Shown: one piece after another, positions 8,400 to 64,000 of the stretch | How positions within the stretch are numbered: position 1 is the first letter of the stretch | Layout: each line of letters begins with the position of its first letter | From: Isoetes taiwanensis | Taxonomy: Eukaryota; Streptophyta; Lycopodiopsida; Isoetales; Isoetaceae | Length of the DNA stretch: 64,000 nucleotides | Direction of reading: 5' to 3' | NCBI GenBank assembly: GCA_021234155.1 | Contig: JAJEKV010000035.1 | Span: 7,127,891-7,191,890 of the forward strand | Notes under the pieces: generated by a model | The model's input: only the letters and a program-made list of their open reading frames with translations | What the model was told of the DNA's origin: nothing | Database searches by the model: none | Translations under genes and position numbers: made by a program

Positions 8400-9455
8400 A
8401 TCAGTGTTTGATCCCTTTATCATTTGTTCATGCTTCATAGGATGATATTGTTGATCACGGGTCTGCATTATGATTATCTTTTTAAAGGCCCCTATGTTAT
8501 TATTTTAAGTGAGGTTTCTGGCAATTGTTTGACTGACCCATGATATGAGGGTATAGTCGCTCATATTTTAAGCCCACTTACATTACTTATGGCCCATCTA
8601 CTTCGACACTATTTGGGCATTTTACGCGCTCACGATCATCTTTCGGCAACAAAACCCAAACATTACCATTGTATATTCCCCTAATATTTTGGCACCATAT
8701 TGTAAATGTTAGACTTCTCTTACAAAAGCCTGTACATATTTTCGTGCTTTTTTTTTTGGGGGGGGGCAATGTTAACCACCTAGTAGTTAACATTGTGTGC
8801 ATGTCAGGTATCGGTGGTGGCAAACTACACTTGGCATGTTTAGGTTAGCGTAAGTGTACGACTTAGATTTAGCTAGATGTAGGGCTCAAATTTGCGGTCT
8901 ACACTATATTAGACCAGAATCTCTCTTCAGGTGTATTCAGGTTTGATCTTAAATTTGGAGAGCCTCATTTGGCGCACATTTCCATATTTTGTGTACATAT
9001 TTGTCCCTTTTTGTTCTTGTTTCATGATCTTGAGCATGACAAGCTCGTAGCATCTGGCAGTCATGGACTGCTGCTGCAAGATGTATGCCAAGAACTCGAG
9101 ACTAACATCTACTAAATAGGTATACAAAAGATACCAGCGTAATATTAATACTTCTTGTGCAGTTCTGGTTATCTTAGTTGTAGGTGTCTATAGTAGACTT
9201 ATATCTTATTTTCGGTTGTAAGCATCTAGACAATCTTTTTCTGGTCATCATATCCTATTATAGGTGTCTCTAGTAAGCTTAAATTTTACTTCTAGTAAGT
9301 CTTTGAATAGAGGATTGTTAAATACCATTTGCAAGATGCAAGATGATATCACGATATCAAGATGTTCGAGAGGGATATCAAGTACCCTTCACATTGAGTT
9401 TGCGAGGCATTGTTTTATTGAACAACAACAATAATGGAACTTGTAAAAGGATTGT
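8400..9455. other. Intergenic, no gene recognised
   Basis: A homopolymer pair at about 8750-8766 (T run then G run) is the only notable simple sequence. No recognisable exon is seen on either strand. Confidence 0.4.
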
Positions 9456-11180: not shown

Positions 11181-11544
11181 TCTGAACCACTTTTCATCTC
11201 CAGTATATCAAGGCCAACCAGTCAGTAAAGAGTGGTTTCAGGCACAGGTGAGGGGGACATTAAACATATCCTCCCCTAGCTGGATGGACTGGTTTCATGG
11301 AGGTCTCCAATTCCAAATTGAACATCACCTCTTTCCTCGTCTCCCTCGACACAATCTGAGAAAGATTTCTAAGGTTGTCAGGCCACTTTGTGAGAAATAT
11401 GATCTGCCCTACAAATCAGTCAGCTTTTGGGAAGCCAATGTAATGATCATCAGCACATTAAGAAGCTCAGCTCTACAAGCACGTGATCTATCCAAACCAG
11501 CTCCCAAGAACCTTTTGTGGGAAGCTATGAATGCCATTGGCTGA
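10153..11544 (+). CDS. SLD: Delta-8 sphingolipid long-chain-base desaturase (cytochrome b5 fusion)
   Basis: 463 residues, uninterrupted. An N-terminal cytochrome b5 domain (about 22-100) has the haem motif HPGGD (57-61) and the second haem histidine in FHPGETW (80). Hydrophobic segments lie at about 129-165 and 300-340. The three histidine boxes of membrane front-end desaturases are present: HDTGH (174-178), HNAHH (211-215) and QIEHH (388-392, with the family's Q for H). EYDPDLQYIPLFAVSSKFF and VSYQHWTFY fit plant sphingolipid delta-8 desaturases, which introduce a double bond in the phytosphingosine base of glucosylceramides in the ER using electrons from the fused b5. Usual family length is about 450 residues. 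A delta-5/6 acyl front-end desaturase is the alternative, less likely from these motifs. The start is chosen as the first ATG after the leader intron. The coding part is intronless, as is usual for the family. It is the only intact known gene in the window. Confidence 0.9.
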   Translation: MTVAIDSFDDESEVNGANALQMRTITSKELAKHNTSQDLWISIQGKVYDVTEWVKFHPGGDLPLISLAGQDVTDSFLAFHPGETWHLLPKYLVGTLTDYSVTPLAAEHRKLLGDLKKAGLFKVPVHTYCFIMIAMLVLLLFCIFGVVFSSNVWVHVACAISLGTVWSQAGWIGHDTGHCGMLGNYKIDTSIGILVGNCLAGIDIGWWKRNHNAHHFSCNSVEYDPDLQYIPLFAVSSKFFSSLHSYFYERTMQFDGLARTLVSYQHWTFYFVMAVARINLYCQTVLFLLSKKRISNRVLQIMALGFYWTWFLSLLSYLPSTWERLLFVIISFAVTGIQHVQFCLNHFSSPVYQGQPVSKEWFQAQVRGTLNISSPSWMDWFHGGLQFQIEHHLFPRLPRHNLRKISKVVRPLCEKYDLPYKSVSFWEANVMIISTLRSSALQARDLSKPAPKNLLWEAMNAIG

Positions 11545-14574: not shown

Positions 14575-16300
14575 GGTTATTTTTAGCCTTATCAGCCAAT
14601 ATAACACCGACACGTGCCCACTATTCTTTAAGCGAATGTGTGTTGTCGGTCATCATTCTGAATATTTTGGTCTCCATTCTGCAATCTATTCTGCTAATAA
14701 TCCACATTCTGCGACAATATCATCTTGATCGTCCATATGTCAAATATGGATGGCTGAAAATTGTCTGGCAGCCCTTCACATTGGGCGAATGGCCCTCTAT
14801 ACAAAAAGCAAATCAAATATTTTACATCCCTCATTGTTTTTACTTTCTTTCAAATTCGATAATAATAATCAGAGGGGATAATAATATACGGAGTGGATGG
14901 TTCGCGTGTAAATAAACACAAAATATATTTTTTATTGCATAGCTGTGCGGGACTTGGTATGAACCAATACTAAAGCCAAAACCTCCTCTTTTCCTGATAA
15001 GCTCATGCCAACGCTAAACTTGGCGGCTTCTGAGGTAAGTTTTCAGATCTATTCTTGCTCGTAGGTTTTGCAATGTGCCAAAAGAAATGAAGCTCTAAAT
15101 GCCTGTTAGCTCAGAGATCTGTTCATCACTTGCTGAATGCCTGCGTTTTCTCCATGTTTACGTATTTTGATCTTTGCCTTTTGACCCACATTGGTGTTTA
15201 TATACCATGGACTTTAAAAATATGTAGATTTTTTGTGGCATAGGTATAGAATGTCTATCAAGTTGTTTAATTCTCAATAATGGTGCTTTTCAAAGCAGGT
15301 GAAACCATGACTGCGGCAATTGACAGTTTCGATGATGAATCAGAAGTTAATGGAGCTAATGCTCTTCAGCTGAGAACCATCACTTCTAAGGAGCTTGCTA
15401 AACATAATACTAGTCGGGATCTATGGATTTCCATCCAGGGAAAAGTGTACGATGTGACAGAATGGGTTAAGTTCCACCCAGGTGGAGATCTCCCTTTAAT
15501 CAGTCTAGCTGGTCAGGATGTTACAGATTCTTTTCTTGCATTCCATCCTGGAGAGACCTGGCATCTTCTTCCAAAGTATTTGGTGGGGACACTAACAGAT
15601 TACAGTGTAACACCTCTTGCAGCAGAGCATAGAAAACTTTTGGGAGACCTAAAGAAGGCTGGACTATTTAAGGTTATCATGATTGCCATGCTTGTGTTGC
15701 TTTTGTTTTGCATCTTTGGTGTTGTTTTCTCCAGCAATGTCTGGGTACATACATGTAGCTTGTGCTATTTCACTTGGGACAGTATGGTCACAGGCAGGAT
15801 GGATAGGTCATAACACTGGATGCTTGGAAATTATAAAATAGATACTTCTATTGGCATACTAGTAGGAAATTGTTTGGCAGGAATTGATATTGGATGGTGG
15901 AAGAGGAACCATAATGCTCATCATTTTTCTTGCAATATTGTGGAGTATGACCCTGATCTGCAATACATACCACTCTTTGCAGTGTCTTCGAAATTCTTTT
16001 CTTCTTTGCATTCCTACTTCTATGAGAGGACAAGGCAATTTGATGGTTTAGCTCGAACTATGGTAAGCTATCAGCATTGGACATTCTACTTTGTGATGGC
16101 AGTTGCCAGAATTAATCTGTACTATCAAACTGTGCTTTTTTTACTATCAAAGAAGCGAATATCAAACCGCGTGCTCCAGATCATGGCATTTGGTTTTTAT
16201 TGGACGTGGTTCCTATCTCTTCTTTCCTACTTACCTTCAACATGGGAAAGGCTCCTTTTTGTGATCATTAGCTTTGCAGTGACCGGTATTCAGCATGTAA
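14575..16300 (+). repeat. Direct duplication, copy 2 (promoter and broken desaturase)
   Basis: Second copy of 9458-11180, with a few substitutions and small insertions in the 5' flank (for example an added run near 14862-14890). Similarity stops abruptly just after the codons for IQH at about 16300. Confidence 0.85.
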
Positions 16301-16308
16301 GGGCATAG
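15307..16308 (+). pseudogene. Broken duplicate of the delta-8 sphingolipid desaturase
   Basis: Starts like the intact copy (MTAAIDSFDD) and keeps the b5 domain with HPGGD. It then has three lesions. A 21-nt in-frame loss removes seven residues after GLFK. A 4-nt ACAT duplication near 15750 shifts the frame. A 10-nt deletion near 15813, with an additional G-to-A change, destroys the first histidine box. The frame resumes at 15820, with HNAHH intact, until GIQHVRA-stop. The third histidine box QIEHH and the last quarter are absent; I found no trace of them in the next kilobases. It cannot encode an active desaturase. Confidence 0.9.
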
Positions 16309-45809: not shown

Positions 45810-46105
45810 CCTTTGTTGAAGTGTGGCTATTCTATGATGCGTACAGTGGCAAACATGCGGCATTTGATTGTGGAGGTACGCATTGCAAGAGGATTACTGG
45901 ACACATCGGCATATCTTTGGCCAGGCTATGCTATGCCAATGTCCAGTTTTTTGCTTTCTACTTCATCACAAGCTTCTCGTTGGTCAGCATTTATGGAAGA
46001 TGCACCGGTTACTGGACCATTTACAATGTCTTGATGTCTTACTATTACATTCAAATTGGATAAACCCTCAGATATTGTTCTTGGTGTTGTTGGACCAGCA
46101 ACAAG
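45810..46105 (+). pseudogene. MED33: Mediator subunit 33 (REF4/RFR1-like) fragment
   Basis: In one frame 45813-46034 reads MRHLIVEVRIARGLLDTSAYLWPGYAM, then WSAFMEDAPVTGPF. This fits the MED33 pattern LLDTSAYxWPGYV...PWxxFMEGAPLTGPL. After a frame change near 46030 comes LTITFKLDKPSDIVLGVVGPA (about 46040-46104), fitting the family's ITFKLDK...LGVVGPALE. The sequence between these two blocks in normal MED33 is missing. MED33 is a large helical-repeat Mediator tail subunit that represses phenylpropanoid genes. Similarity stops exactly where a CACTA-like terminus begins. Confidence 0.6.
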
Positions 46106-46350
46106 AAAATGGGCATTTAACGACGTGGGGTCGCGACGTCTGGGTCATGCGACGTCACATTTGACGTGACTAGGTCACGTCAACGTCGCTAGTAGCGACG
46201 TCGCGGCGTACGCCGCATGCGACGTCTACTGCGACACCTCACGTGACATAGGCGACGTCTGCCACCACGTCGCTATGACAAGGTCGTGTATGTCACGCCA
46301 GCTGCGCTGTCAACGTGCGCGACGTATACGCGACATCTTGTGTACTTTGC
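46105..46350. mobile_element. CACTA-like terminal and subterminal sequence at the left edge of the satellite array
   Basis: ACAAGAAAATGGGCATTTAACGACG starts right after the MED33 GGACCAGC and equals a typical plant CACTA end (CACTACAAGAAAA...) lacking its first four bases. It is followed by about 230 bp packed with CGACGTC/GACGTC motifs, the composition of CACTA subterminal regions. No TSD can be tested because the partner end is not in the window. Confidence 0.5.
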
Positions 46351-46354
46351 TCTC

Positions 46355-48132
46355 CTTCGAGAACATGGGTGATCTTCTGGCCACGAAACTTGGTCCCCAA
46401 GGTACAAGAGCCAAATCAAGGTTTTGGAGAGGCAAGATTGCCCGTCCGTCCCCAGGGCCTTGGAGAGAGGATTTTTGGGGCAAGCAGCTTCCGAGGGGAT
46501 TTTATGGTCCATGCTCTGGTGTCAACACACCCCCTCCACGTCAAGACACGACGCACGGTCCCGGCCGAATCTGACAAGGAGAGGACCTCTGAAACGTAAA
46601 CCCTGTGGGTTGCTAGGTTCTAGAAGGGTTTACATTTTGGGGGCCGAGTTTTAGTCTGTTGCAGTTGGGACGTGGCCGAGAAGCTGCAGTTGAGAACACG
46701 GAGCAAGGGGAACTGACAGAACGGAATTTGGGCCTGTCCTCCTCCCGATGTGACAATTAGAAGTCAGGGGCCAATTTTGTAGTGGCAAGACATTCATAAA
46801 TTCGTAATTAATGCATTGTACGAAATTAAATTTTGATTTTTTGCCAGCTGAATTCTTAATTCATCACCAGCACACAACCCAGTTTTCGGAATTTTCAGAG
46901 AAGGTCTAGATCAAAGGGTTAGCATTAGAACGGTCGGGGCAGACCATTGTGGGGCAACCGAGTTGGCACCCTTCCCCAAGTCAAACAAGGCCAGGACCTT
47001 GCAAGGCTGCCTCACAAGAGGGGAGAGTCTGGACCCCAGGAGGCGGGATCCAAAAAACTTCCCGAGGCAGCCTTTCCTGGCAGCGATCCCACAGTGGGAT
47101 GTACGCTAATGACCATCCTCCCGGAGCACGGTTCCCCTATCCGACCGTTGAATCCTCTATTCAAGGGTCCTTCTTTGGGAAGGTCGCCAAACCACGGAGC
47201 GTCCTGAGGGCGACCGTGTAGAAACCGGAGTGTTTTGTCGTTCGGGCACCACGGAAGCTCCGGAATGGCGATTCGACTTCGCCAAGTCGTCCAGAATGGC
47301 GAAATTACCCTAGGAAGCAAGTTACAAGGTCAGTTTTGCAAAAGAAAGAAACAGTCACGCCCCACACGGCAGTATCGGCATCCACATCCTAGGCCAATTG
47401 ACTACGAGTGTGCTGGACATGAGCTACTTTGGCAATTCTTGGATGAGGGGTGGTCTTCTAGCCACGAAACTTGGTCCCCAAGGTAATGTCGACGTTCTGA
47501 GCCCATTGGCAGAGCCAAATCACGATTCCGGAGAGGGGAGATGGCCCGTACATCCCCGGGGCCTTGGAGAGAGGATTTTTTGGGGCAAGCAGCTTCCCGG
47601 GGGGATTTTATGGTCCGTGCTCTGGCGTCAACACCCCCCCTCCACATCAAGACACGGCGCACGGTCCCGGCCGAATCTGACAAGGAGAGGGCCTCCAAAA
47701 CGTAAACCCTGTGGGTTGCCAGGTTCTAGAAGGGTTTCCATTTTGAGGGCCGAGTTTTAGTCTGTTGCAGTTGGGACATGGCCAGAAGCTGCAGTTGAGA
47801 ACGCGGAGCAAGGGGAACTGACAGAACGTAGTTTGGGCATGTCCTCCTCCCGATGTGACAATTAGAAGTCGGGGGCCAGTTTTGCAGTGGCAAGACATTC
47901 ATAAATTCGTAATTAATGCATTGTACGAAATGAAATTCTGATTTTTTGCCAGCTGAATTCCTAATTCATCGTCAGCACACAGCCCAGTTTTCGGAATTTT
48001 CAGAGAAGGTCTAGATTAAAGGGTTAGCATTAGAACGGTCGGGCAGCCCGTTGTGGGGCAACCGAGCTGGCACCCTTCCCCAAGTCAAACAAGGCCAGGA
48101 CCTTGCAAGGCTACCTCACAAGAGGGAAGAGT
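46355..48132. repeat. Satellite array, left block (~1.13-kb units)
   Basis: About 1.6 units of the long-unit tandem repeat. The landmark CATTCATAAATTCGTAATTA lies at 46791 and 47896 (1105 apart). The block starts in mid-unit next to the CACTA-like sequence and is interrupted at 48132 by the CACTA insertion. Frames inside units are open for up to about 120 codons in several phases on both strands, but differ between units, so I see no support for coding. Confidence 0.88.
48130..48132. repeat. Left 3-bp target duplication (AGT) of the CACTA element
   Basis: GGGAAGAGT precedes CACTACAAGGG; AGT recurs at 54720-54722. The uninterrupted unit reads GGGAAGAGTCTGG. Confidence 0.8.
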
Positions 48133-48144
48133 CACTACAAGGGA

Positions 48145-48680
48145 TAGTCGACGTCCAACGACGTCGCGACGTCGAAGAACGACGGGTCGCCGTCGAACAT
48201 CGACAACATCGTCGTTCAACGACGACAACGTCGTTTCGACGTCGTTCAACGACGCTTTCCGTGGTATCGACGTGTCCGGATTGGCTGCGTGACATTGTAT
48301 GCTAGCGCCGCTGGCGGGCAGTTCGTGCCAAAACACGTCAGCTGAACGTCGTTGAACGACGTCTTACAGAGCTGACGTGTCGGATTGGCCTGCGTGGCTT
48401 GCTGACATGCCAGGCTGGCACGCCACCGTGTTCTGCCATGTCGACATGACGTCGTTGAACGACGACTAAAAATCGACGTGACCCGGTCCGCAAATTTGCG
48501 TGGTTTGCCGACATGCCAGTCGGGTAGCACGCCAAAGTGTCCCGCCCGTCGTCGACATGGCGTCGTTAAACGACGCTGGAATATCGGCGTGGCGGCGGTT
48601 TTTGCCAGCGTGGCCGGCATCGTCCGCGCCACGCTATTGTCAGCAGAGCGCCACGTAAGCAACGTCGTTTAACGACGTCA
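48145..48680. repeat. Left subterminal palindrome cluster of the CACTA element
   Basis: CGTCGTTGAACGACG-type motifs at about 48206-48255, 48346, 48451, 48561 and 48664, separated by GC-rich sequence; ends in a T/A homopolymer hairpin (48686-48726). Confidence 0.75.
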
Positions 48681-48744
48681 CTATTTTTTTTTTTTTTTTT
48701 TTTGGAAAAAAAAAAAAAAAAAAAAAATCTTATCTAACGGCGTA

Positions 48745-51700
48745 AACTATCGTTTGGAATGCCAAAATTACCCTATGGACTAAGTTACACGGTCAGTTTT
48801 GCAAAAAAACGACACACACTTACGCCCTACATTGCAGTATTCAACAGCCACCTCCTAGGCCAATTGACTACGAGTGTGTTGGACATAAGATAGTTTGGCG
48901 CTTCTTCGAGAAGGGGTGGCCTTCTGGCCACAAAACTTGGTCCCTAGGGCAATGTCGACGTTCTGAGTCCATTGGCAGAGCCGAATCACGGTTCCGGAGA
49001 GGGAAAGTTGCCCGTCCGTCGCCAGGGCCTTCGGGAGAGGACTTTTGGGGCAAGCCGCCTCGGGTGGTTTTAGGGTCCGTGCTCTCAAGTCCAACACCCC
49101 CCTCTCTCGTCAAGACACGGCGCAAGGTCCTAGTCGAATCGACAAGGATAGAGCCTCTCGGCGTAAACCCTATGAGTTGCCGGTTCTAGCGGGGTTTGCG
49201 TTTTGGGTGCCGAAGTTTTGGTCTTTTGCACTTGGGGCGTGGCGATCACATGCGATTGAGAACGCAAAGCAAGGGGAACCGGCGGAATGTAGTTTGGACT
49301 GTACTCCTCCGTTGTGGCGGTTAGAAGTCAAGGCCCACTTTTGCGGTATCAAGACATTCAGTAAATTCGTAATTAATGCATAATCTGGACTTAAATTCTG
49401 ATTTTTTGTCGTGAGATTCCAAAGTCATCGCCAACATACAGAGCCAACTTTCAAAAATTTTGGATAAGGTTTAGATCAAATAGTTTGCACTAGAACAACC
49501 CGGGCGACTGTTGTTGGGCAGTAGAAGTAACACACTTGCCCAAGTCAAACAAGGCCAGGGGACCTTGCAAGGCCTCCTCATTAGAGGGGAGAGTCCAAAC
49601 CCGTGAGGCGAGCCCCAAAAGCTTCCCGAGGCGACCTTTCTGGCGGCTCCCGCACGGGGCGACGCTAAAGACCACACTCCCGGATCTCGGTTCTCGTATC
49701 CGACCGTTGAATCCTTTGTTCCGGGAACCTGGTCCGAGAAGGTCCAAAAATCCAACATCCGTCCGGAGAACATATCAAACCGAAGCGTCTAGCTGGCGGC
49801 AGTAGAGAAACCAAAGTGTTTTGTCGTTCGGACATTGCGGAGGTTCAAAATGCCGATCCGACTTCGCCAAATCGTCCCTAATGCCAAAATTACCCTACGG
49901 ACCAAGTTATACGGTCGGTTTTGCAAAAGAAACAAACACTTATGCCCTACATTGCGGTTATTCAAAGCCACCACCTCCTAGGCCAATTGACTACGAGTGT
50001 GTTTGCACATGATATAGTTTGGCTTCTTCGAGAAGGGGTGGGCTTCGCCACAAAACTTGGTCCCTAGGGCAATGTCGGCGTTTTGAGTCCATTGGCGAGA
50101 GCGGATCACGGTTCCCGAGAGGGAAGTTGCCCGTCCGTCGCCCGGGGCCTTCGGAGAGGAATTTTGGGGCAAGCCGCTTCCGGGTGGTTTTAGGGTCCGT
50201 GTTTCTCGGCGTCAACACCCCCTCTACATCAAGACACGGCGCAAGGTCCTAGTCAAATCGACAAGGATAGAGCCTCCGCGTAAACCCTATGAGTTGCCGT
50301 GGTTCTAGCGGGGGTTTGCATTTTGGGTGCCGAGTTTTGGTCTTTTGCACTTGGGACGTGGCCGATCACATGCAGTTGAGAACGCGAAGCAAGGGGAACT
50401 GACGGAATGGAGTTTGGACCTGTACTCCTCCCGTTGTGGCAGTTAGAAGTCAAGGGCCGCTTTTGCAGTAGCAAGACATTCGTAAATTCGTAATTAATGC
50501 ATAGTACGGACTTAAATTCTGATTTTTTGTCAGCTAGCTTCCTAAGTCATCGCCAACATACAGGCCAACTTTCAAAAATTTTGGATAAGGTTTAGATCAA
50601 ACAGTTTGCACTAGAACAGTCCGGGCAGCCTGTTGTTGGGCGTACCGAAACACACTTGCCCAAGTCAAACAAGGCCAGGACCTTGCAAGGCCTCCTCATT
50701 AGAGGGGAGAGTCCGAACCCCAGGAGGCGAGCCCCAAAAAGCTTCCCGAGGCAGCCTTTTCTGGCAGCGCTCCGCCGGGGGGGTGTACGCTAAAGACCAC
50801 ACTCCCGGATCTCGGTTCCCGTATCCGACCGTTGAATCCTTTGTTCCAGGAACCTGGTCCGAGAAGGTCCAAAAAAATCCATTCTCCGTCCGGGAGAACA
50901 TATCAAACCGCGAAGCGTCCTGCGGGCGACAGTGTAGAAACTAAAGTGTTTTGTCATTCGGACATTGCGGAGGCTCCGAAATGCCGATCCGACTTCGCCA
51001 CATCGTCCGGAATGCCAAAATTACCCTAGGGACCAAGTTACACGGTCAGTTTTGCAAAAGAAAGAAACACTTACGCCCTACATTGCAGTATTCAGCAGCC
51101 ACCTCCTAGGCCAATTGACTACGAGTGCGTTGCACATGAGATAGTTTGGCGCTTCTTCGAGAAGGGGTGGGCTTCTGGCCACAAAACTTGGTCCCTAGGG
51201 CAATGTCGACGTTCTGAGTCCATTGGCAGAGACAGATCACGGTTCCGGAGAGGGGAAGTTGCCCGTCCGTCGCCAGGGCCTTCGGGAGAGGAATTTTGGG
51301 GCAAGCTGCTTCCGGGTGGTTTTTAGGGTCCGTGCTCTGGCGTCAACACCCCCCCTCTACATCAAGACACGACGCAAGGTCCTAGTCAAATCTGACAAGG
51401 ATAGAGCCTCCGAAACGTAAACCCTATGAGTTGCCAGGTTCTAGCAGGGTTTGCGTTTTGGGTGCCGAGTTTTGGTCTTTTGCACTTGGGACATGGCCGA
51501 TCACATGCAGTTGAGAACGCGAAGCAAGGGGAACTGACGGAATGGAGTTTGGACCTGTACTCCTCCCGTTGTGGCAGTTAGAAGTCAAGGGCCGCTTTTG
51601 CAGTAGCAAGACATTCGTAAATTCGTAATTAATGCATAGTACGGACTTAAATTCTGATTTTTTGTCAGCTAGCTTCCTAAGTCATCGCCAACATACATGC

Positions 51701-52828
51701 CAACTTTCAAAAATTTTGGATAAGGTTTAGATCAAATAGTTTGCACTAGAACAACCAGGGGCCTTTGTTGTTGGGCAGCCGAAATGGCACACTTGCCCAA
51801 GTCAAACAAGGCCAGGACCTTGCAAGGCCTCCTCATTAGAGGGGAGAGTCCGAACCCCAGGAGGCGAGCCCCAAAAAGCTTCCCGGCAGCCTTTTCTGGC
51901 AGCGCTCATGCCCAGGGGGCGTACGCTAAAGACCACACTCCCGGATCTCGGTTCCGTGATCCGGCCGTTGAATCCTTTGTTCCAAGAACCTGGTCCGAGA
52001 AGGTCCAAAAAATCCAACATCCGTCCCGGAGAACATATCAAACCGCTGAAGCGTCCGCTGGGCGGCGATGTAGAAACCAAAGTGTTTTGGTATTCGGACA
52101 TTGCGGAGGCTCAGAAATGCCGATCCGACTTTGCCACATCGTCCGGAATGCCAAAATTACCCTAGGGACCAAGTTACACGGTCAGTTTTGCAAAAGAAAC
52201 AAACACTTACGCCCTACATTGCAGTATTCAGCAGCCACCTCCTAGGCCAATTGACTACGAGTGTGTTGCACATGAGATAGTTTGGCGCTTCTTCGAGAAG
52301 GGGTGGGCTTCTGGCCACAAAACTTGGTCCCTAGGGCAATGTCGACGCTCGAGTCCATTGGCGAGAGATGCATCACTTGCCCGGAGAGGGAAGTTGCCCG
52401 TCCGTCGCCGGGGCCTTTGGGAGAGGACTTTTGGGCAAGCCGCCCGGTGGTTTTAGGGTCCGTGCTCAAGGCCAACACCCCCCTCTACGTCAAGACACGG
52501 CGCAAGGTCCTAGTCAAATCTGACAAGCATAGAGCCTCCGAAACGTAAACCCTATGAGTTGCCAGGTTCTAGCAGGGTTTGCGTTTTGGGTGCCGAGTTT
52601 TGGTCTTTTGCACTTGGGACGTGGCCAATGACATGCGATTGAGAACGCCGAAGCAAGAGGAACCCGACGGAATGGAGTTTGGACCAGACTCCTCCCGTTG
52701 TGGCAGTTAGAAGTCAAGGCCCGCTTTTGCAGTAGCAAGACATTCGTAAATTCGTAATTAATGCATAGTACGGACTTAAATTCTGATTTTTTGTCAGCTA
52801 GCATCCTAAGTCATCGCCAACATACAGG
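48745..52828. repeat. Diverged satellite subfamily inside the CACTA element
   Basis: About 3.6 units with the landmark (CATTCGTAAATTCGTAATTA) at 49355, 50477, 51612 and 52741; spacings are 1122, 1135 and 1129. Compared with the outer array, many fixed differences mark a separate subfamily: TTGCACTTGGGACGTGGCCGATCACATG in place of TTGCAGTTGGGAC...GAAGCTG, CTCATTAGAGGGG for CTCACAAGAGGGG, and GCATAGTACGGACTT for GCATTGTACGAAAT. Orientation is the same as the outer array. Confidence 0.85.
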
Positions 52829-52829
52829 C

Positions 52830-53117
52830 ATGTTGAGATAAACTACATCTTCGCATGTTGGTAGGGTATTAGTTCTCATAGCAGGGGACAAAATTAAAAA
52901 AATATATATATATATGTCGTCGTAACAAGCGAACACGTAGCTATTGGTAAGGTATTAGTTATCGTAGCAGGTAAGGTATTACTAGTTATCATCATCGTAT
53001 TATATACCTCATAGCGGTATATTTCATAACTTTAACGGGTGTAGCAAGTCAAATAAAGCCCTATCCATGTTAAATAAACCCATGTATCAAGTGTACATGC
53101 ATTCTATACTATTTAAA

Positions 53118-53154
<37 letters not shown>

Positions 53155-53250
53155 TCGTAAAAAAAAAAACGTCGTTAAAACGCCGTCAACGACGTTTTTG
53201 TCGCCGTTTAACGATGTCACGCACGTCGTTAAACGACGACCCAGGATTTA
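52830..53250. other. AT-rich CACTA interior with (TA)n and poly-T tract
   Basis: (TA)n lies at about 52902-52913. GGTAAGGTATTA/TAGGGTATTAGTT repeats occur near 52860-52985. A run of about 33 T is at 53120-53152. Confidence 0.6.
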
Positions 53251-54391
53251 AATCGAAAACAAAGCGCAAATCCCGCCGCTTATTTTCGAAAGCAAGCAAA
53301 GCTTATGGAGGAGCGTTTTTTGAGGCGATTTTCGGCGCGGATCTACTTTGGGGTCTATTCTAAGTGTAAGACAAGCTTCATAAGGTATGTGCACGGATCA
53401 ACCAACTCGTTTTTTGAATCTAAACTTGTTTTTGGGTAGATTTAGGGCTTTTTGTATTTGTTGTTTGTTCTTCCTTCAACCTTCATTCTTCTTCTTCCAT
53501 TCTTGCATCCTTCTTCCATACATATTCTTCCATTCCCTTTGTCATCTTCTTCTTCGATTCTTCCTCCTCTTATACTACTTCTTCCTCCTCTTATTCAAAT
53601 TCTTACTCTTAATCCTCCTCTTTAGCTTCATCTTCTTCAGATTCTTCCTCCCCATTTTCGGGTTCCTCCTCTTCTTCTTAGCCTTTTCTTCTTGAATTCT
53701 TCCATTCTTCTTCTAATTGTTTTCCCATCTAAGAAGACGTCGTTAAAAGACGAGACCCTTCTTCTTTCCAAAATTTTTCCTTATTAGTTGTTTTATACTA
53801 TTTCTTTCTAATCATTGAATTTTTTGTTTTGCATGTACACTCCTAGCAAAATGTGTTGTTCTTGCAAAACAAGTTGGCACCTCTTCCAGGTAAGGATTTA
53901 ATTTTTTCAATACGCTAATAAAATACTAATGCTTTATTTAGGTTAAATTGTTATCCAAGAAGGGGCGCCATTGAAACCACCCTCCCCCATTGATTTTCCA
54001 TATTTTTTTTTTTTCCTTTAAGTTGTTTATTTATACTAATATTTTACTAATCATTGAATTTATTGTTTTGCATGTACACTCCTAGCAAATGCGTTGTTTG
54101 TGCAAAACAACTTTGCCACCTTGTACCAGGTAAGCATTTAATTTTCAATATGCTTAATGTATTGATTAATGTATTTAGCTTAATTTATTGATTAATGTAT
54201 TTAGCTAAAAAAATTGGGGCTTCATTTATTTTTGTATTTTTTTTAATATATTTAAGCGACATCATTTAATGACGTTAAAATCTTATATTTCTTTATTGGT
54301 TAAATTCATTTTATAGGCTTTAAATTAAATGTATTAACTTCATTAATAATAAATGTATTATTATTATTTTTTTCAATTTATTAAAAAAAAA

Positions 54392-54426
<35 letters not shown>

Positions 54427-54719
54427 TTTTAATACACGTAAGCAACGTCGTTAAACGATGTTGCTTACGCGGTACGCTACCGCGTCGACAACCGCGCTGC
54501 CGACGCCATACCGGCCGCCCGGCCATTAAGGCGACCCACGCGCGCGGGCGTCGTTGAACGACGCCACGCGTCGCGAAGCGCTTTAAAGGCGCCAGCGATT
54601 GCGGCAGATATAGCGACGCGTCCACGTCGTAAAACGACGTGCAGACGTCGTTATAGGCGTCGTTCATCGACGTTTTGGCGTCGTAATGGACGTCGTAACA
54701 GGGCAATTTTTTTGTAGTG
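53160..54719. repeat. Right interior and subterminal zone of the CACTA element
   Basis: CGTCGTTAAACGACG-type motifs lie at 53170-53235, 53738, 54446, 54549, 54626 and on to 54700. Between them, 53450-53720 is a CTTCTTC-rich tract. A direct duplication of about 238 bp (TCATTGAATTTxTTGTTTTGCATGTACACTCCTAGCAAA...CCAGGTAAG) starts at 53813 and 54051, each ending in a splice-donor-like CCAGGTAAG. An A/T homopolymer stretch lies at 54378-54430. Confidence 0.7.
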
Positions 54720-54722
54720 AGT
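54720..54722. repeat. Right 3-bp target duplication (AGT) of the CACTA element
   Basis: AGT directly after TTTGTAGTG, continuing as CTAGACCCCAGGAGGCGGG of the interrupted satellite unit. Confidence 0.8.
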
Positions 54723-57700
54723 CTAGACCCCAGGAGGCGGGATCCAAAAAAGTTCCCGAGGCAGCCTTTCCTGGCAGCGATCCCACGGTGGGATGTACGC
54801 TAATTACCACCCTCCCGGAGCCCAGTTCCCCAATCTGACCGTTGAATCCTCCATTCAAGGGCCCTTCTTCGGGAAGGCAAAAGATTCCAAGATCGGTCTG
54901 GGGGAACTTGTAAAACCGTGGAGCGTCCTGAGGGCAACCGTGTAGAAATCGGAGTGTTTTGTCGTTCGGGCACTACGAAGGCTCCGGAATGGCGATTCGA
55001 CTTCGCCAAGTCGTCCAGAATGGTGAAATTACCCTAGGAAGCAAGTTACAAGGTCAGTTTTGCAAAAGAAAGAAATGATCCACGCCCCACACGGCGAAGA
55101 CGGCATCCACATCCTAGGCCATTTGACTACGAGTGTGTTGGACATAAGCTACTTTGGCAATTCTTGGATGAGGGGAGGTCTTCTAGCCACGAAAAATGGT
55201 CCCCAAGGCATTGTCATCGTTCTGAGTCCATTGGCAGAGCCAAATCACGATTCCGGAGAGGGGAGAGTGCCCGTCCGTCCCCAGGGCCTTGGAGAGAGGA
55301 TTTTTGGGGAGAGCGACTTTTAATGGGGATTTTATGGTCCATGCTCTGGCATCCACACCCCCCCTCCACGTCAAGACACGGCGCATGATCCCGGTCGAAT
55401 CGGACAAGGAGAGGGCCTCCGAAACGTAAACCCTGTGGGTTGCCAGGTTCTATAAGTGTTTGCATTTTGGGGGCCGAGTTTTGGTCTGTTGCAGTTGGGA
55501 CGTGGCCGAGAAGCTGCAGTTGAGAACTCGGAGCAAGGGAAACTGACAGAACGGAGTTTGGGCCTGTCCTCCTCCCGATGTGACAATTAGAAGTCGGGGG
55601 CCAGTTTTGCAGGGGCAAGACATTCATAAATTCGTAATTAATGCATTGTATGAAATTAAATTCTGATTTTTTGCCAACTGAATTCCTAATTCATCACCAG
55701 CACACAGCCCAGTTTTTGGAATTTTCAGAGAAGGTCTAGATCAAAGGGTTAGCATTAGAACGGTCGGGGCGGCCCGTTGTGGGGCAACCGAGTTGGCACC
55801 CTTCCCCAAGTCAAACAAGGCCAGGACCTTGCAAGGCTACCTCACAAGAGGGGAGAGTCTGGACCCTAGGAGGCGGGATCCAAAAAAGTTCCCGAGGCAG
55901 CCTTTCCTGACAGCGATCCCACAGTGGGATGTACGCTAATGACCATCCTCCCAGAGCCTGGTTTCCCTATCCGACCGTTGAATCCTCTATTCAAGGGTCC
56001 TTCTTTGGGAAGGTCCAAAAGCTTCCAAGATCGGTCTGGGGGAACTTGTCAAACTGCGGAGCGTCCTGAGGGCGACCGTGTAGAAACCGGAGTGTTTTGT
56101 CATTCGGGCACCACGGGGCTCTGGAATGGCGATTCGACTTCGCCAAGTCGTCCAGAATGGCGAAATTACCCTAGGAAGCAAGTTACAACGTCAGTTTTGC
56201 AAAAGAAAGAAACAGTCACGCCTCACACGGCAGTATCGGCATCCACATCCTAGGCCAATTGACTACGAGTGTGTTAGACATGAGCTACTTTGGCAATTTT
56301 TGGATGAGGGGTGGTCTTCTAGCCAAGAAACTTGGTCTCCAAGGCAATGTCAACGTTTTGAGTCCATTGGCAGAGCCAAATCACGGTTCCAGAGAGGAGA
56401 GATTGCCCGTCCGTCCCCGGGACCTTGGAGAGAGGATTTTTGGGGCAAGTAGCTTCCAGGAGGATTTTATGGTTCGTGCTCTGGCATCAACACCCCCCCT
56501 CCACGTCAAGACAGGGCGCACGGTCCCGACCAAATCTGACAAGGAGAGGGTCTCCAAAACGTAAACCCTGTGGGTTGCCAGGTTCTAGAAGGGTTTGCGT
56601 TTTGAGGGTCGAGTTTTAGTCTGTTGCAGTTGGGACATGGCCAGAAGCTGCAGTTGAGAACGGAGAGCAAGGGGAGCTGACAGAACGGAGTTTGGGCCTG
56701 TCCTCCTCCCGATGTGACAATTAGAAGTCGGGGGCCAGTTTTGCAGTGGCAAGACATTCATAAATTCGTAATTAATGCATTGTACGAAATGAAATTCTGA
56801 TTTTTTGCCAGCTGAATTCCTAATTCATCGTCAGCACACAGCCCAGTTTTTGGAATTTTCAGAGAAGGTCTAGATTAAAGGGTTAGCATTAGAACGGTCG
56901 GGCAGCCCGTTGTGGGGCAACCGAGCTGGCACCCTTCCCCAAGTCAAACAAGGCCAGGACCTTGCAAGGCTACCTCACAAGAGGGAAGAGTCTGGACCCC
57001 AGGAGGCGGGATCCAAAAAAGTTCCCGAGGCAGCCTTTCCTGGCAGCGATCCCACGGTGGGATGTACGCTAATTACCACCCTCCCGGAGCCCGATTCCCC
57101 AATCTGACCGTTGAATCCTCCATTCAAGGGCCCTTCTTCGGGAAGGCAAAAGATTCCAAGATCGGTCTGGGGGAACTTGTAAAACCGTGGAGCGTCCTGA
57201 GGGCAACCGTGTAGAAATCGGAGTGTTTTGTCGTTCGGGCACTACGAAGGCTCCGGAATGGCGATTCGACTTCGCCAAGTCGTCCAGAATGGCGAAATTA
57301 CCCTAGGAAGCAAGTTACAAGGTCAGTTTTGCAAAAGAAAGAAACAGTCACACCCCACACGGCAGTATCAGCATCCACATCCTAGGCCATTTGACTACGA
57401 GTGTGTTGGACATAAGCTACTTTGGCAATTCTTGGATGAGGGGAGGTCTTCTAGCCACGAAAAATGGTCCCCAAGGCAATGTCAACGTTCTGAGTCCATT
57501 GGCAGAGCCAAATCACGATTCCGGAGAGGGGAGAGTGCTCGTCCGTCCCCAGGGCCTTGGAGAGAGGATTTTTGGGGAGAGCAGCTTTCGTGGGGATTTT
57601 ATGGTCCATGCTCTGGCATCCACACCCCCCCTCCACGTCAAGACACGGCGCACGATCCCGGTCGAATCGGACAAGGAGAGGGCCTCCGAAACGTAAACCC

Positions 57701-60700
57701 TGTGGGTTGCCAGGTTCTATAAGTGTTTGCATTTTGGGGGCCGAGTTTTGATCTGTTGCAGTTGGGACGTGGCCGAGAAGCTGCAGTTGAGAACTCGGAG
57801 CAAGGGAAACTGACAGAACGGAGTTTGGGCCTGTCCTCCTCCCGACGTGACAATTAGAAGTCGGGGGCCAGTTTTGCAGGGGCAAGACATTCATAAATTC
57901 GTAATTAATGCATTGTATGAAATTAAATTCTGATTTTTTGCCAACTGAATTCCTAATTCATCACCAGCACACAGCCCAGTTTTTGGAATTTTCAGAGAAG
58001 GTCTAGATCAAAGGGTTAGCATTAGAACGGTCGGGGCGGCCCGTTGTGGGGCAACCGAGTTGGCACCCTTCCCCAAGTCAAACAAGGCCAGGACCTTGCA
58101 AGGCTACCTCACAAGAGGGGAGAGTCTGGACCCTAGGAGGCGGGATCCAAAAAAGTTCCCGAGGCAGCCTTTCCTGACAGCGATCCCACAGTGGGATGTA
58201 CGCTAATGACCATCCTCCCAGAGCCTGGTTTCCCTATCCGACCGTTGAATCCTCTATTCAAGGGTCCTTCTTTGGGAAGGTCCAAAAGCTTCCAAGATCG
58301 GTCTGGGGGAACTTGTCAAACTGCGGAGCGTCCTGAGGGCGACCGTGTAGAAACCGGATTGTTTTGTCGTTCGGGCACCATGGGGCTCCGGAATGGCGAT
58401 TCGACTTCGCCAAGTCGTCCAGAATGGCAAAATTACCCTAGGAAGCAAGTTACAACGTCAGTTTTGCAAAGAAAAAATGATCCGCCTCACCAAGGCGTGT
58501 CGGCATCCACATCCTAGGCCAATTGACTACGAGTGTGTTAGACATGAGCTACTTTGGCAATTTTTGGATAAAGGTGGTCTTCTAGCCAAGAAACTTGGTC
58601 CCCAAGGCAATGTCAACGTTCTGAGTCCATTGGCAGAGCCAAATCACGGTTCCAGAGAGGAGAGATTGCCCGTCCGTCCCCGGGACCTTGGAGAGAGGAT
58701 TTTTGGGGCAAGTAGCTTCCAGGAGGATTTTATGGTTCGTGCTCTGGCATCAACACCCCCCCTCCACGTCAAGACAGGGCGCACGGTCCGGCCAAATCTG
58801 ACAAGGAGAGGGTCTCCAAAACGTAAACCCTGTGGGTTGCCAGGTTCTAGAAGGGTTTGCGTTTTGAGGGCCGAGTTTTAGTCTGTTGCAGTTGGGACAT
58901 GGCCAGAAGCTGCAGTTGAGAACAGAGAGCAAGGGGAGCTGACAGAACGGAGTTTGGGCCTGTCCTCCTCCCGATGTGACAATTAGAAGTCGGGGGCCAG
59001 TTTTGCAATGGCAAGACATTCATAAATTCGTAATTAATGCATTGTACGAAATGAAATTCTGATTTTTTGCCAGCTGAATTCCTAATTCATCGTCAGCACA
59101 AAGCCCAGTTTTCGGAATTTTCAGAGAAGGTCTAGATTAAAGGGTTAGCATTAGAACGGTCGGGCAGCCCGTTGTGGGGCAACCGAGCTGGCACCCTTCC
59201 CCAAGTCAAACAAGGCCAGGACCTTGCAAGGCTACCTCACAAGAGGGAAGAGTCTGGACCCCAGGAGGCGGGATCCAAAAAAGTTCCCGAGGCAGCCTTT
59301 CCTGGCAGCGATCCCACGGTGGGATGTACGCTAATTACCACCCTCCTGGAGCCCGGTTCCCCAATCTGACCGTTGAATCCTCCATTCAAGGGCCCTTCTT
59401 CGGGAAGGCAAAAGATTCCAAGATCGGTCTGGGGGAACTTGTAAAACCGTGGAGCGTCCTGAGGGCAACCGTGTAGAAATCGGAGTGTTTTGTCGTTCGG
59501 GCACTACGAAGGCTCTGGAATGGCGATTCGACTTCGCCAAGTCGTCCAGAATGGCGAAATTACCCTAGGAAGCAAGTTACAAGGTCAGTTTTGCAAAAGA
59601 AAGAAACAGTCACGCCCCACACGGCAGTATCAGCATCCACATCCTAGGCCATTTGACTACGAGTGTGTTGGACATAAGCTACTTTGGCAATTCTTGGATG
59701 AGGGGAGGTCTTCTAGCCACGAAAAATGGTCCCCAAGGCAATGTCAACGTTCTGAGTCCATTGGCAGAGCCAAATCACGATTCCGGAGAGGGGAGAGTGC
59801 CCGTCCGTCCCCAGGGCCTTGGAGAGAGGATTTTTGGGGAGAGCAGCTTTCGTGGGGATTTTATGGTCCATGCTCTGGCATCCACACCCCCACGTCAAGA
59901 CCGCGGCGCGCATCCGGCCGACCGGACAAGGAGAGGGGCTCAAACGTAAACCACGTGGGTTGCGGTGTTCTATAAGTGTTTGCATTTTGGGGGCCGAGTT
60001 TTAGTCTGTTGCAGTTGGGACGTGGCCGAGAAGCTGCAGTTGAGAACTCGGAGCAAGGGAAACTGACAGAACGGAGTTTGGGCCTGTCCTCCTCTCGATG
60101 TGACAATTAGAAGTCGGGGGCCAGTTTTGCAGGGGCAAGACATTCATAAATTTGTAATTAATGCATTGTATGAAATTAAATTCTGATTTTTTGCCAACTG
60201 AATTCCTAATTCATCACCAGCACACAGCCCAGTTTTTGGAATTTTCAGAGAAGGTCTAGATCAAAGGGTTAGCATTAGAACGGTCGGGGCGGCCCGTTGT
60301 GGGGCAACCGAGTTGGCACCCTTCCCCAAGTCAAACAAGGCCAGGACCTTGCAAGGCTACCTCACAAGAGGGGAGAGTCTGGACCCTAGGAGGCGGGATC
60401 CAAAAAAGTTCCCGAGGCAGCCTTTCCTGACAGCGATCCCACAGTGGGATGTACGCTAATGACCATCCTCCCAGAGCCTGGTTTCCCTATCCGACCGTTG
60501 AATCCTCTATTCAAGGGTCCTTCTTTGGGAAGGTCCAAAAGCTTCCAAGATCGGTCTGGGGGAACTTGTCAAACTGCGGAGCGTCCTGAGGGAGACCGTG
60601 TAGAAACCGGAGTGTTTTGTCGTTCGGGCACCACGGGGCTCCGGAATGGCGATTCGACTTTGCCAAGTCGTCCAGAATGGCGAAATTACCCTAGGAAGCA

Positions 60701-63530
60701 AGTTACAACATCAGTTTTGCAAAAGAAAGAAACAGTCACGCCTCACACGGCAGTATCGGCATCCACATCCTAGGCCAATTGACTACGAGTGTGTTAGACA
60801 TGAGCTACTTTGGCAATTTTTGGATGAGGGGTGGTCTTCTAGCCAAGAAACTTGGTCCCCAAGGCAATGTCAACGTTCTGAGTCCATTGGCAGAGCCAAA
60901 GCACGGTTCCAGAGAGGAGAGATTGCCCGTCCGTCCCCGGGACCTTGGAGAGAGGATTTTTGGGGCAAGTAGTTTCTAGGAGGATTTTATGGTTCGTGCT
61001 CTGGCATCAACACCCCCCCTCTACGTCAAGACAGGGCGCACGGTCCCGGCCAAATCTGACAAGGAGAGGGTCTCCAAAACGTAAACCCTGTGGGTTGCCA
61101 AGTTCTAGAAGGGTTTGCGTTTTGAGGGCCGAGTTTTAGTCTGTTGCAGTTGGGACATGGCCAGAAGCTGCAGTTGAGAACGGAGAGCAAGGGGAGCTGA
61201 CAGAATGGAGTTTGGGCCTGTCCTCCTCCCGATGTGACAATTAGAAGTCGGGGGCCAGTTTTGCAGTGGCAAGACATTCATAAATTCGTAATTAATGCAT
61301 TGTACGAAATGAAATTCTGATTTTTTGCCAGCTGAATTCCTAATTCATCGCCAGCACACAGCCCAATTTTTGGAATTTTCAGAGAAGGTCTAGATTAAAG
61401 GGTTAGCATTAGAACGGTCGGGGCAGCCCGTTGTGGGGCAACCGAGCTGACACCCTTCCCCAAGTCAAACAAGGCCAGGACCTTGCAAGGCTACCTCACA
61501 AGAGGGAAGAGTCTGGACCCCAGGAGGCGGGATCCAAAAAAGTTCCCGAGGCAGCCTTTCCTGGCAGCGATCCCACGGTGGGATGTACGCTAACTACCAC
61601 CCTCCCGGAGCCCGGTTGCCCAATCCGACCGTTGAATCCTCCATTCAAGGGCCCTTCTTCGGGAAGGCAAAAGATTCCAAGATCGGTCCGGGGGAACTTG
61701 TCAAACCGCAGAGCGTCCTGAGGGCGACCGTGTAGAAACTGGAGTCTTTTGTCGTTCGGGCACTGCGAAGGCTCCGGAATGGCAATTCGACTTCGCCAAG
61801 TCGTCTAGAATGGCGAAATTACCCTAGGATGCAAGTTACAAGGTCAGTTTTGCAAAAGAAAGAAACAATCATGCCCCACACGTCAGTATCAGCATCCACA
61901 TCCTAGGCCAATTGACTACGAGTGTGCTGGACATGAGCTACTTTGGCAATTCTTGGATGAGGGGTGGTCTTCTAGCCACAAAAATTGGTCCCCAAGGCAA
62001 TGTCGACGTTCTGAGTCCATTGGCAGAGCCAAATCATGGTTCCGGAGAGGGGAGAGTGCCCATCCGTCCCCAGGGCGTTGGAGAGAGGATTTTTGGGGCA
62101 AGCAGCTTCCGGGGGGTTTTATTTTCTGCTCAAGGCGTCAACGCCCCCCTCCACGTCAAAACACGGCGCACGGTCCCGGCCGAATCTGACAAGGAGAGGG
62201 CCTCCGAAACGTAAACCATGTGGGTTGCCAGGTTCTAGAAGGGTTTGCATTTTGGGGGCCGAGTTTTGGTCTGTTGCAGTTGGGACGTGGCCAAGAAGCT
62301 GCAGTTGAGAACCGGAGCAAGGGGAACTGACAGAACGGAGTTTGGGCCTGTCCTGCTCCCGATGTGAGAATTAGAAGTTGGGGGCCAGTTTTGCAGGGGC
62401 AAGACATTCAGAAATTCGTAATTAATGCATTGTATGAAATTAAATTCTGGTTTTTTGCCAGCTGAATTCCTAATTCATCACTAGCACATAGACCAGTTTT
62501 CGGAATTTTCAGAGAAGGTCTAGATCAAAGGGTTAGCATTAGAACGGTCCGGGCAGCCCGTTGTGGGGCAACCGAGCTGGCACCCTTCCCCAAGTCAAAC
62601 AAGGCTAGGACCTTGCAAGGCTGCCTCACAAGAGGGGAGAGTCTGACCCCAGGAAGCGGGATCCAAAAAAGTTCCCGAGGCAGCCTTTCCTGGCAGCGAT
62701 CCCACAGTGGGATGTACGCTAATGACCACCCTCCCAGAGCCCGGTTCGCCTATCCGACCGTTGAATCCTCCGTTCAAGGGCCCTTCTTCGGGAAGGTCCA
62801 AAAGATTCCAAGATCGGTCCGGGGGAACTTGTCAAACCGCGGAGCGTCCTGAGGGCGACCGTGTAGAAACCAGAGTGTTTTGTCGTTCGGGCACCACGGA
62901 GGCTTCGGAATGGTGATTCGACTTCGACAAGTCGTCCAGAATGGTGAAATTACCCTGGGAAGCAAGTTACAAAGTCAGTTTTGCAAAATAAAGAAACAGT
63001 CACGCCCACACGACAGTATCCGACATCCACATCCTAGGCCATTGACTACGAGTGTGCTAGAAATGAGCTATATTGGCAATTCTTGGATGAGGGGTGGTCT
63101 TCTAGCCACGAAACTTGGTCCCCAAGGCAATGTTGACGTTTTGAGTCCATTGGCAGAGCCAAATCACGGTTCCGAAGAGGGGAGATTGCCCGTCCGTCCC
63201 CAGGGCCTTGGAGAGAGGATTTTTGGGGCATGCAGCTTCCGGGGTGATTTTATGGTCCGTGCTCTGGCGTCAACACCCCTCCTTTACGTCAGGATATTGC
63301 ACAAGGTTTTGGTCGAATCTGACAATGATAGGGCCTCCAAAACATAAACCCTGTGAGTTGCCTAGTTCTTGAAGGGTTTACATTTCAGGGGTCGAGTTTT
63401 CATCTATTGCACTTGGGACGTGGCCGAGATGTTGCAGTTGAGAATGCGAAGCAATGGGAACTGACGAAGCGGAGTTTGGATATGCCCTCCTCCCGAAGTG
63501 GCAATTGGAAGCCAAGCGCTGCTTTTACAG
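54720..63530. repeat. Satellite array, right block with dimeric higher-order structure
   Basis: Landmark positions are 55621, 56755, 57888, 59027, 60141, 61275 and 62405; spacings are 1134, 1133, 1139, 1114, 1134 and 1130. Two unit types alternate. Type 1 has TGTACGAAATGAAATTCTG, GATTAAAGGG, CGAGCTGGCA and GAGGGAAGAGTC. Type 2 has TGTATGAAATTAAATTC, CCAACTGAATTC, GATCAAAGGG, CGAGTTGGCA and GACCCTAGGAGG. Same-type units about 2.26 kb apart are more alike than neighbours, a true higher-order repeat. Towards the right end (62.4 kb on) units are more diverged. No rRNA, tRNA or conserved protein was recognised inside. Confidence 0.9.
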
Positions 63531-63650
63531 TAGCAGGACACGATTTGCGATCATTCTGTATTGCAGATAGATCTGAACCCCAGTTTTTTGGTTGCCATGG
63601 CCATGCATGCATACTTAGAGACGGTCCACCGAGTTATCCATGAAATCAAT
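63531..63650. other. Break in the satellite array
   Basis: Similarity to the satellite stops after GCAGGACA and about 110 unrelated bases follow. Confidence 0.6.
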
Positions 63651-63875
63651 CATGTTTCGGCCTCCGAAACATAAACCCTTTGGGTTGCCAGGTTCTCGTA
63701 GGGTTTACGTTTTGGGGGGTGAGTTTTAGTCTTCTTCGCTTGGGACATAGCCAAAATACTGTAGTTAAGAACAGAAGCAATAGGAACCTGACGGAATGGA
63801 GTTCGGATCCGTCCTCCTCCCAATGTGGCAATTAGAAGTCATCAAGTGCTGCTTTTGCAGTAGCAAGACATTGTG
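63651..63875. repeat. Truncated, diverged terminal satellite segment
   Basis: GGCCTCCGAAACATAAACCC...GTTGCCAGGTTC to GCAGTAGCAAGACATTG repeats the 63328-63540 part of the previous unit, then similarity ends: the array's right edge. Its variant bases resemble the subfamily inside the CACTA element at several places (for example GCAGTAGCAAGACATT). Confidence 0.65.
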
Positions 63876-64000
63876 AGAATTTCTCATGCACCAATACTGC
63901 ATATCCTAGTGAGAATTTTTTCATGTGTCTGCACCACCATTTGGCTTCCTCTGTCAAAGACTCGCATTTTTTCGATGTATACTCTTTTAGTTATGCATTT
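63876..64000. other. Non-satellite sequence at window end
   Basis: No feature recognised. Confidence 0.4.

Follow-up and report, generated by a model that had tools for sequence, protein, structure and literature searches.

It has long been asked how satellite DNA arrives at new places on chromosomes, and the evidence so far consists in large part of homology between satellite monomers and transposons. A locus of the lycophyte Isoetes taiwanensis (assembly GCA_021234155.1, 1.658 Gb; contig JAJEKV010000035.1, positions 7,127,891 to 7,191,890) raises this question in a concrete form. Within the 64,000-bp stretch of DNA analyzed here, referred to as the window, a CACTA transposon lies in a tandem array of satellite units and itself contains units of a diverged subfamily of the same satellite. 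Did the element bring these units along or take them up after landing, and what kind of array did it land in?

The original prediction, made from the sequence alone, held that the element already had its cargo when it arrived and that CACTA elements seed or spread the satellite. Here, we report an analysis of the element, its copies at other loci, and the array that surrounds it. We consider it highly probable (roughly 0.9) that the element belongs to a CACTA (En/Spm) family, denoted family A, with a satellite array as its usual content, that the copy in the window is nested in the internal array of another family, denoted family B, and that the 1.13-kb satellite has been dispersed as transposon cargo.

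The family A element and its landing site

Both boundaries of the element can be read in the window, ...gggaagAGT/CACTACAAGGG on the left, at 48133, and TTTTTTTGTAGTG/AGTctagac on the right, at 54719 (the slash marks the boundary), and its termini are CACTACAA...TTGTAGTG. The subterminal repeats are variants of ACGTCGTTnAACGACG, present on the left as eight copies of a 19-nt motif and on the right as four copies of a 17-nt motif. ACGTC and GACGT together occur 21 times in the left and 8 times in the right subterminal region, compared with shuffle means of 1.2 and 0.6, and none of 2000 simple base shuffles reached either count. The CACTA ends, the AGT duplication and the palindromic subterminal arrays described in the original prediction are thus all borne out, and the element has the CACTA...TAGTG terminal inverted repeats (TIRs), the 3-bp target site duplication (TSD) and the short direct and inverted subterminal repeats that characterize the CACTA superfamily.

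Joining the flanks, 47302-48132 and 54723-55025, restores one outer unit of 1134 bp, in which the two parts meet without gap or overlap. The outer units are of two types, A and B (see below); to the right of the joint, all 18 informative sites are A-like, and to the left, 29 are A-like and 18 B-like. An arrangement of two separate CACTA fragments around the inner array is ruled out by this exact empty site together with the TSD.

A tnp2 transposase gene of its own was not found: the larger open reading frames (ORFs) of the element that were scanned, among them 52986-53360 (overlapping the left part of the region 53161-54435) and the minus-strand ORF 54323-54799, gave no Pfam hit, smaller ORFs lying outside the scan. 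We therefore classify the element as non-autonomous.

The number and orientation of the satellite units in the element (Table 1) agree with the prediction of about 3.6 units oriented like the host array. The cargo spans unit position ~1115 to ~680 of the 1130-bp unit. Identity among the inner units is 89.5-94.7% (6 pairs), and between inner and outer units it is 76.2-82.6% (40 pairs, from 4 inner and 10 outer units including partial ones). The three full inner units are separated from eight outer units by 108 fixed substitutions, as befits the diverged subfamily that had been proposed. The units form a satellite in the sense of head-to-tail tandem repeats devoid of coding function, the latter judged from five unit ORFs, for which Pfam returned nothing above the cut-off. 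A single sub-threshold match, MTA_R1 at 19.3 bits (cut-off 25), was obtained across the satellite and element ORFs; with zero Rfam hits and zero tRNAs found by ARAGORN, these searches suggested no function for the satellite unit.

The same cargo at other loci

A search with the family A left end scored 40 of 614 candidate places, the window included, so that the figures are lower bounds; at least 46 matches were found at these 40 places. Twenty of the 39 other places, numbered with the prefix L, were read over ~10 kb each (L012 is shorter, ending with its contig). At 15 of the 20, inner-type units, whole or partial, come after the left end, in the same orientation and phase and with the same junction. 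At L024, the units begin after an intervening stretch of 1.4 kb. Four places (L019, L020, L022, L026) have reverse-oriented units after the left end, and in the ~10-kb stretch read at L016, the only such place among the 20, no satellite unit was found.

The left junction aligns at one place, with small differences, in all 17 rows compared (15 loci, a second junction in L013, and the window). The right junction, where the array passes into the region that we call mid, is the same in 6 of 8 aligned rows, window included, that is, in 5 of 7 other copies. The family right end was found in five of the 20 stretches, in each case with matching 3-bp flanks (TTT, AGG, ATT, AGT and GGG), and these five copies share the CACTACAA/TTGTAGTG ends; the inner subfamily thus lies between CACTA ends elsewhere in the genome as well. 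No satellite was found next to the five copies, in left flanks of ~200 bp and right flanks of 520-1770 bp. The array ranges in size from ~0.1 unit (L010) to ~8 units where the stretch ends (L014, L023, L027). In most family A copies read, then, the array lies between fixed junctions, the copies occupy separate loci, and the array varies in length.

Two further arrangements were observed. Within the array of L013, most of the left subterminal region is present once more (L013:2481-2960), and another "first unit" comes after it. This looks as though tandem amplification had taken in the left end, or as though recombination via their arrays had joined two elements. Family A left ends also occur in the same orientation at C1019:6005346 and C1019:6012567. 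This spacing is within the range of 7-14 kb that is also seen in family B (C909:448990/455948, C921:187313/195698 and C948:1335825/1350089, all in the same orientation) and suggests element chains produced by array recombination, or clustered insertion.

A shared edge unit

To characterize the units within family A, 59 full units from 13 loci were compared, and a tree of these units across loci contains a first-unit clade that spans loci. A column was considered diagnostic when its state was present in at least 9 of 12 labeled first full units and in no more than 15% of the other 47. Fourteen such columns were found. Drawing random units from the same elements gave a mean of 0.019 columns and a maximum of 2 in 1000 permutations, and 500 fresh permutations for the same 12-unit set gave at most 6. 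At L010, L011, L014, L017, L018 and L028, the array begins with a truncated first unit, which was not labeled; all of these units carry both junction-proximal first-unit bases (6/6), and the two bases are absent from all seven interior units displayed. Across loci, one and the same type of unit adjoins the left junction. In the same tree, runs of neighboring units cluster in L023 and L027.

These findings bear on the possibility that the element was empty when it inserted and gained the satellite later at this site, either through gap repair or through a template switch to another array. In-place satellite capture is a recognized route for DNA transposons, and here the satellite directly adjoins the element. 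However, 15 other loci have the same left junction, 5 of 7 other copies agree in the right one, and the edge-unit variants are shared; we reject capture after insertion, which appears to us extremely improbable. The proposal that the element came with its cargo is accordingly upheld, by the recurrence of the subfamily and its junction at 15 of 20 other left ends and by the five two-ended copies at other loci. Because junctions and first-unit variants recur across loci, the array would most likely have been acquired once by family A, before its dispersal. Transposition would then have dispersed the array together with its edges, and unequal recombination would lengthen, shorten and homogenize the arrays in place.

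Relatives with transposase pieces

Pieces of tnp2 (PF02992) were detected in L026 (E=5.7e-42) and L016 (E=3.4e-14), whereas four other ORFs scanned from L016, L020 and L026 gave no hit. The left ends of L016 and L026 are ~80% alike to the left end in the window over 335 bp, and L016, L020 and L026 are mutually 93-94% alike over 5-6.5 kb. The junction with the reverse-oriented satellite is common to L019, L020 and L026, and L022 has a different one. Given the similar ends, family A elements may be moved in trans by the tnp2 transposase of such relatives.

The outer array as the interior of a second element

The array into which the family A element inserted had been taken for an independent satellite, a view that did not hold up. 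Outer units O3-O8 alternate between the types A and B, forming a higher-order repeat with a ~2.26-kb dimer; identity is 96.0-97.8% within and ~90-92% between types. Upstream of the array lies a 247-bp stretch that we used to search for family B left ends, scoring 40 of 140 candidate places. At least 43 matches were found at these 40 places, and 35 of the 40 start at one base, equivalent to 46099 in the window. Twelve loci, the window among them, were read. The terminus CACAACAAG is present in 10 of the 12 (all except the window and L041), and 10 of the 12 enter the satellite at one junction, at unit position ~137-147 (all except L032 and L041). The left subterminal region contains 16 ACGTC/GACGT motifs in 245 bp, compared with a shuffled mean of 0.5, and the right side is also dense in them. 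Beyond the window, an ACGTC-rich region is closed by TTGTTGTG, the complement of the family B terminus. In three further 10-kb stretches (L042-L044), the family B right end was not found.

The repeated left end, the fixed junction and the probable TTGTTGTG right end indicate that an element contains the outer array as its interior; this element probably extends over ~21 kb, the nested family A element counted. We call family B only CACTA-like because its terminus, CACAACAAG, is not the CACTA terminal motif and the window copy, the one copy read at both ends, has an altered left terminus and no matching TSD. The family A element thus inserted into the internal array of family B, which consists of another subfamily of the same unit and has another fixed junction. 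Since the element landed in the repeats of a related element, what appears here as a satellite array is itself transposon cargo.

Where the outer array ends on the right (62947-63872 and L029:15-563), pieces of the unit are rearranged in the order 1-594, 387-596, 595 onward, and 399-460. This order recurs, at least partly, at C948, C919, C635 and C644.

Alternatively, the unit could be a conventional satellite residing in large free arrays, from which CACTA elements merely captured pieces while contributing little to its spread. A search with the outer unit produced 8533 first-look candidates, of which 27 arrays were scored over limited stretches, and 13 of the 27 have no recognized element edge in the stretch scored; both figures would suit a free satellite, as would the precedent of quinoa, where, according to the accessible part of the report (PMC8978399), the satellite probably existed before CACTA elements captured it. 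Against this, a family B edge or a nearby left end accompanies 14 of the 27 arrays (12 when two C1067 arrays, which have only the 596/601 edge, are set aside). The junction at 147 was found in 7 arrays, an edge at 594-601 in 6, and an upstream family B left end in 5; four of the 6 with the 594-601 edge have the compound 387-596 piece seen in the window and L029. None of the 27 spans more than 7.4 kb, a weak argument given the limited stretches scored. Furthermore, three element groups carry the unit at fixed junctions, which implies that the satellite has been dispersed as cargo in at least three CACTA-type groups. We regard a mainly free-standing satellite as possible but on balance unlikely. 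Of the two roles assigned to CACTA elements in the original prediction, spread is therefore supported, by 15 of 20 left ends and five two-ended copies elsewhere, but the seeding of free-standing arrays is not.

A more far-reaching idea, which we consider doubtful, is that of a mobile satellite that hardly exists in this genome except within CACTA-type elements. Three groups of elements would maintain it as a tandem domain, at three different fixed junctions and in both orientations, because they benefit from the array, which might space their ends, attract silencing chromatin or provide a safe landing site for relatives. If so, nested insertion of the kind found in the window would be how subfamilies mix.

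Table 1. Features of the nested elements (window coordinates unless a locus is named; the slash marks a junction).
Feature	Position	Strand	Remarks
Family A, non-autonomous CACTA transposon, 6587 bp	48133-54719	+	Inside an outer A-type satellite unit; defined by both termini, TSD and exact empty site
TSD AGT, left copy	48130-48132		
TSD AGT, right copy	54720-54722		
Left end (CACTACAAGGGATAGTCGACG...) and left subterminal array	48133-48680	+	ACGTCGTTnAACGACG-type palindromes
Poly-T/poly-A spacer and short stretch upstream of array	48681-48748		Junction in window ATCGTTTGGAATGCCA/AAATTACCCTATGG
Cargo array, 3.61 head-to-tail inner-subfamily units	48749-52829	+	~1.13 kb each; orientation of the surrounding array
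First full cargo unit	48765-49886	+	Edge type common to loci (14 diagnostic columns)
Right internal region, mid	52830-53160	+	Adjoins array end
AT/CT-rich right internal region	53161-54435	+	Contains a 180-bp direct duplication
Right subterminal repeats and right end TTGTAGTG	54436-54719	+	
Family B left end and subterminal region, 247 bp	46099-46345	+	GCGACGTC-rich; first two terminal bases altered in window
Outer array, left part	46346-48132	+	Begins at unit position ~137-147
Outer array, right part	54723-64000	+	AB dimers 55026-61815; degenerate edge from 62947; runs on to L029 ~563
Probable right end of outer element, TTGTTGTG	L029:3156 (= window position 67156)		3.2 kb beyond window

Outside these elements, the window contains a cytochrome-b5 fatty acid desaturase gene in two copies close to each other, at 10084-11541 and 15271-16308. 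The first has Pfam hits; the second was identified by eye and is spread over two adjacent ORFs.

Sequence variation and the reliability of the assembly

The private variation of the inner units in the window (48749-52829) is concentrated in CAG/CTG triplets, 19 of 32 of which are altered, versus 229 of 2326 other triplets. Across the 59 family A units, altered CAG/CTG triplets (216/590) are about threefold as frequent as altered GAC/GTC controls (244/2006), and CG-containing triplets are altered about as often as CAG/CTG (1669/4779). The outer units display a milder CAG/CTG excess (11/101 vs 103/2755 in type A, 6/102 vs 72/2815 in type B). Such variation may reflect methylation-linked mutation or long-read base-calling error and may account for part of the divergence among inner units; unit divergences may accordingly be inflated. 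The comparable variability of CG-containing triplets favors methylation as a common cause. The CAG/CTG changes in family A are, however, both of the C-to-T type and at the middle base, and the latter do not fit deamination. In the literature on nanopore base-calling errors and CHG methylation, we found nothing that accounts for the CAG/CTG excess.

Tandem arrays are prone to collapse in assembly, and the biased variation may hint at imperfect base calls, so that the nested arrangement might be suspected of being an artifact. A misassembly at 48132/48133 or 54719/54720 is nonetheless unlikely, because the TSD is exact, the A-type unit is restored exactly at the empty site, and the same ends and junctions occur at other loci; we give an assembly artifact hardly any weight.

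Points against the proposed history

Several observations weigh against the history of dispersal and nesting proposed here. The family A right end was not reached in 15 of the 20 stretches, the right junction deviates in two of eight rows (L013 and L021, which are alike), and L016 has TTGTAGTG at 9214 without a matching flank. As for the edge unit, the first-unit labels were assigned after the tree had been seen, and the 12-unit set was uneven, with L017_u01 included and L014_u01 and L018_u01 left out, all three following a truncated unit. When the count was redone under two consistent label rules, the 11 full units directly at the left junction gave 14 columns and all 14 first full units gave 7, with zero columns in each of 500 permutations under either rule. 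L014_u01 and L018_u01 carry none of the 14 first-type states, as expected if they were interior units until a deletion took place, and L025_u01, which carries 9 of the 14, falls outside the first-unit clade. A nearest-neighbor test of the first units was weak (8/12, reached by 148 of 2000 permutations), its distance version was moderate (reached by 17 of 2000), and the distance between interior units is only slightly smaller within an element (0.097, 88 pairs) than between elements (0.109, 993 pairs). Mobilization by relatives is deduced from similar ends. Finally, the window copy of the outer element lacks a matching TSD and has its left terminus altered, and its left and right ends are presumed to belong together.

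Implications and comparison with known systems

The locus and its relatives bring together, within one assembly, the vehicle, the edges of its cargo, the scars of its landing, and relatives with transposase pieces. The shared first unit allows units that moved with the element to be separated from those amplified after landing, and a single set of loci can therefore serve to measure both transposition and the change of arrays in place. The findings also call for caution, in that what is annotated as a satellite array may lie inside a transposon.

Satellites carried by CACTA elements have clear published precedent; reviews (PMC9659126, PMC10794571, PMC12692304) supply part of the literature background. 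A text search of the open-license literature, blind to sequence, found no report of a comparable nesting. In wheat and barley, several satellite DNA monomers match EnSpm/CACTA over part or all of their length (PMC10827815, PMC11447152); in the accessible parts of these reports, the link consists of monomer homology detected by RepeatMasker, with no element junctions or target duplications. The foldback transposon Tetris of Drosophila virilis, whose internal repeats became the satellite TIR-220, resembles family A in that tandem repeats lie inside a non-autonomous DNA transposon; its repeats also occur as longer arrays, with kb-size satellite-like arrays reported, but, unlike those described here, are located in the TIRs (portions of PMC4079207 available to us). 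In Chenopodium, tnp2 fragments of the element Jozin gave rise to a 40-bp satellite, a major one, so that there too CACTA elements are directly linked to a satellite; according to the available text, however, that monomer derives from the transposase gene, whereas the five Isoetes satellite ORFs have no Pfam hit above the cut-off (PMC7320549).

The closest counterpart is found in Chenopodium quinoa. There, a CACTA-like Jozin element with near-complete ends contains, near its 3' end, a tandem array of 32.5 satellite monomers of 171 bp each, and three additional scaffolds have CACTA elements with this array; the authors suggest that CACTA elements captured the satellite and spread it (PMC8978399, accessible part). 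As in Isoetes, a CACTA element has an internal tandem satellite array, and the array recurs in CACTA elements elsewhere. The quinoa elements were located by their transposase domain and the monomer has 171 bp, whereas the Isoetes elements are mainly non-autonomous and the unit measures 1.13 kb. To what is described for quinoa in that part of the report (PMC8978399), Isoetes adds fixed junctions, a shared edge unit, three element groups, and one element nested in the array of another.

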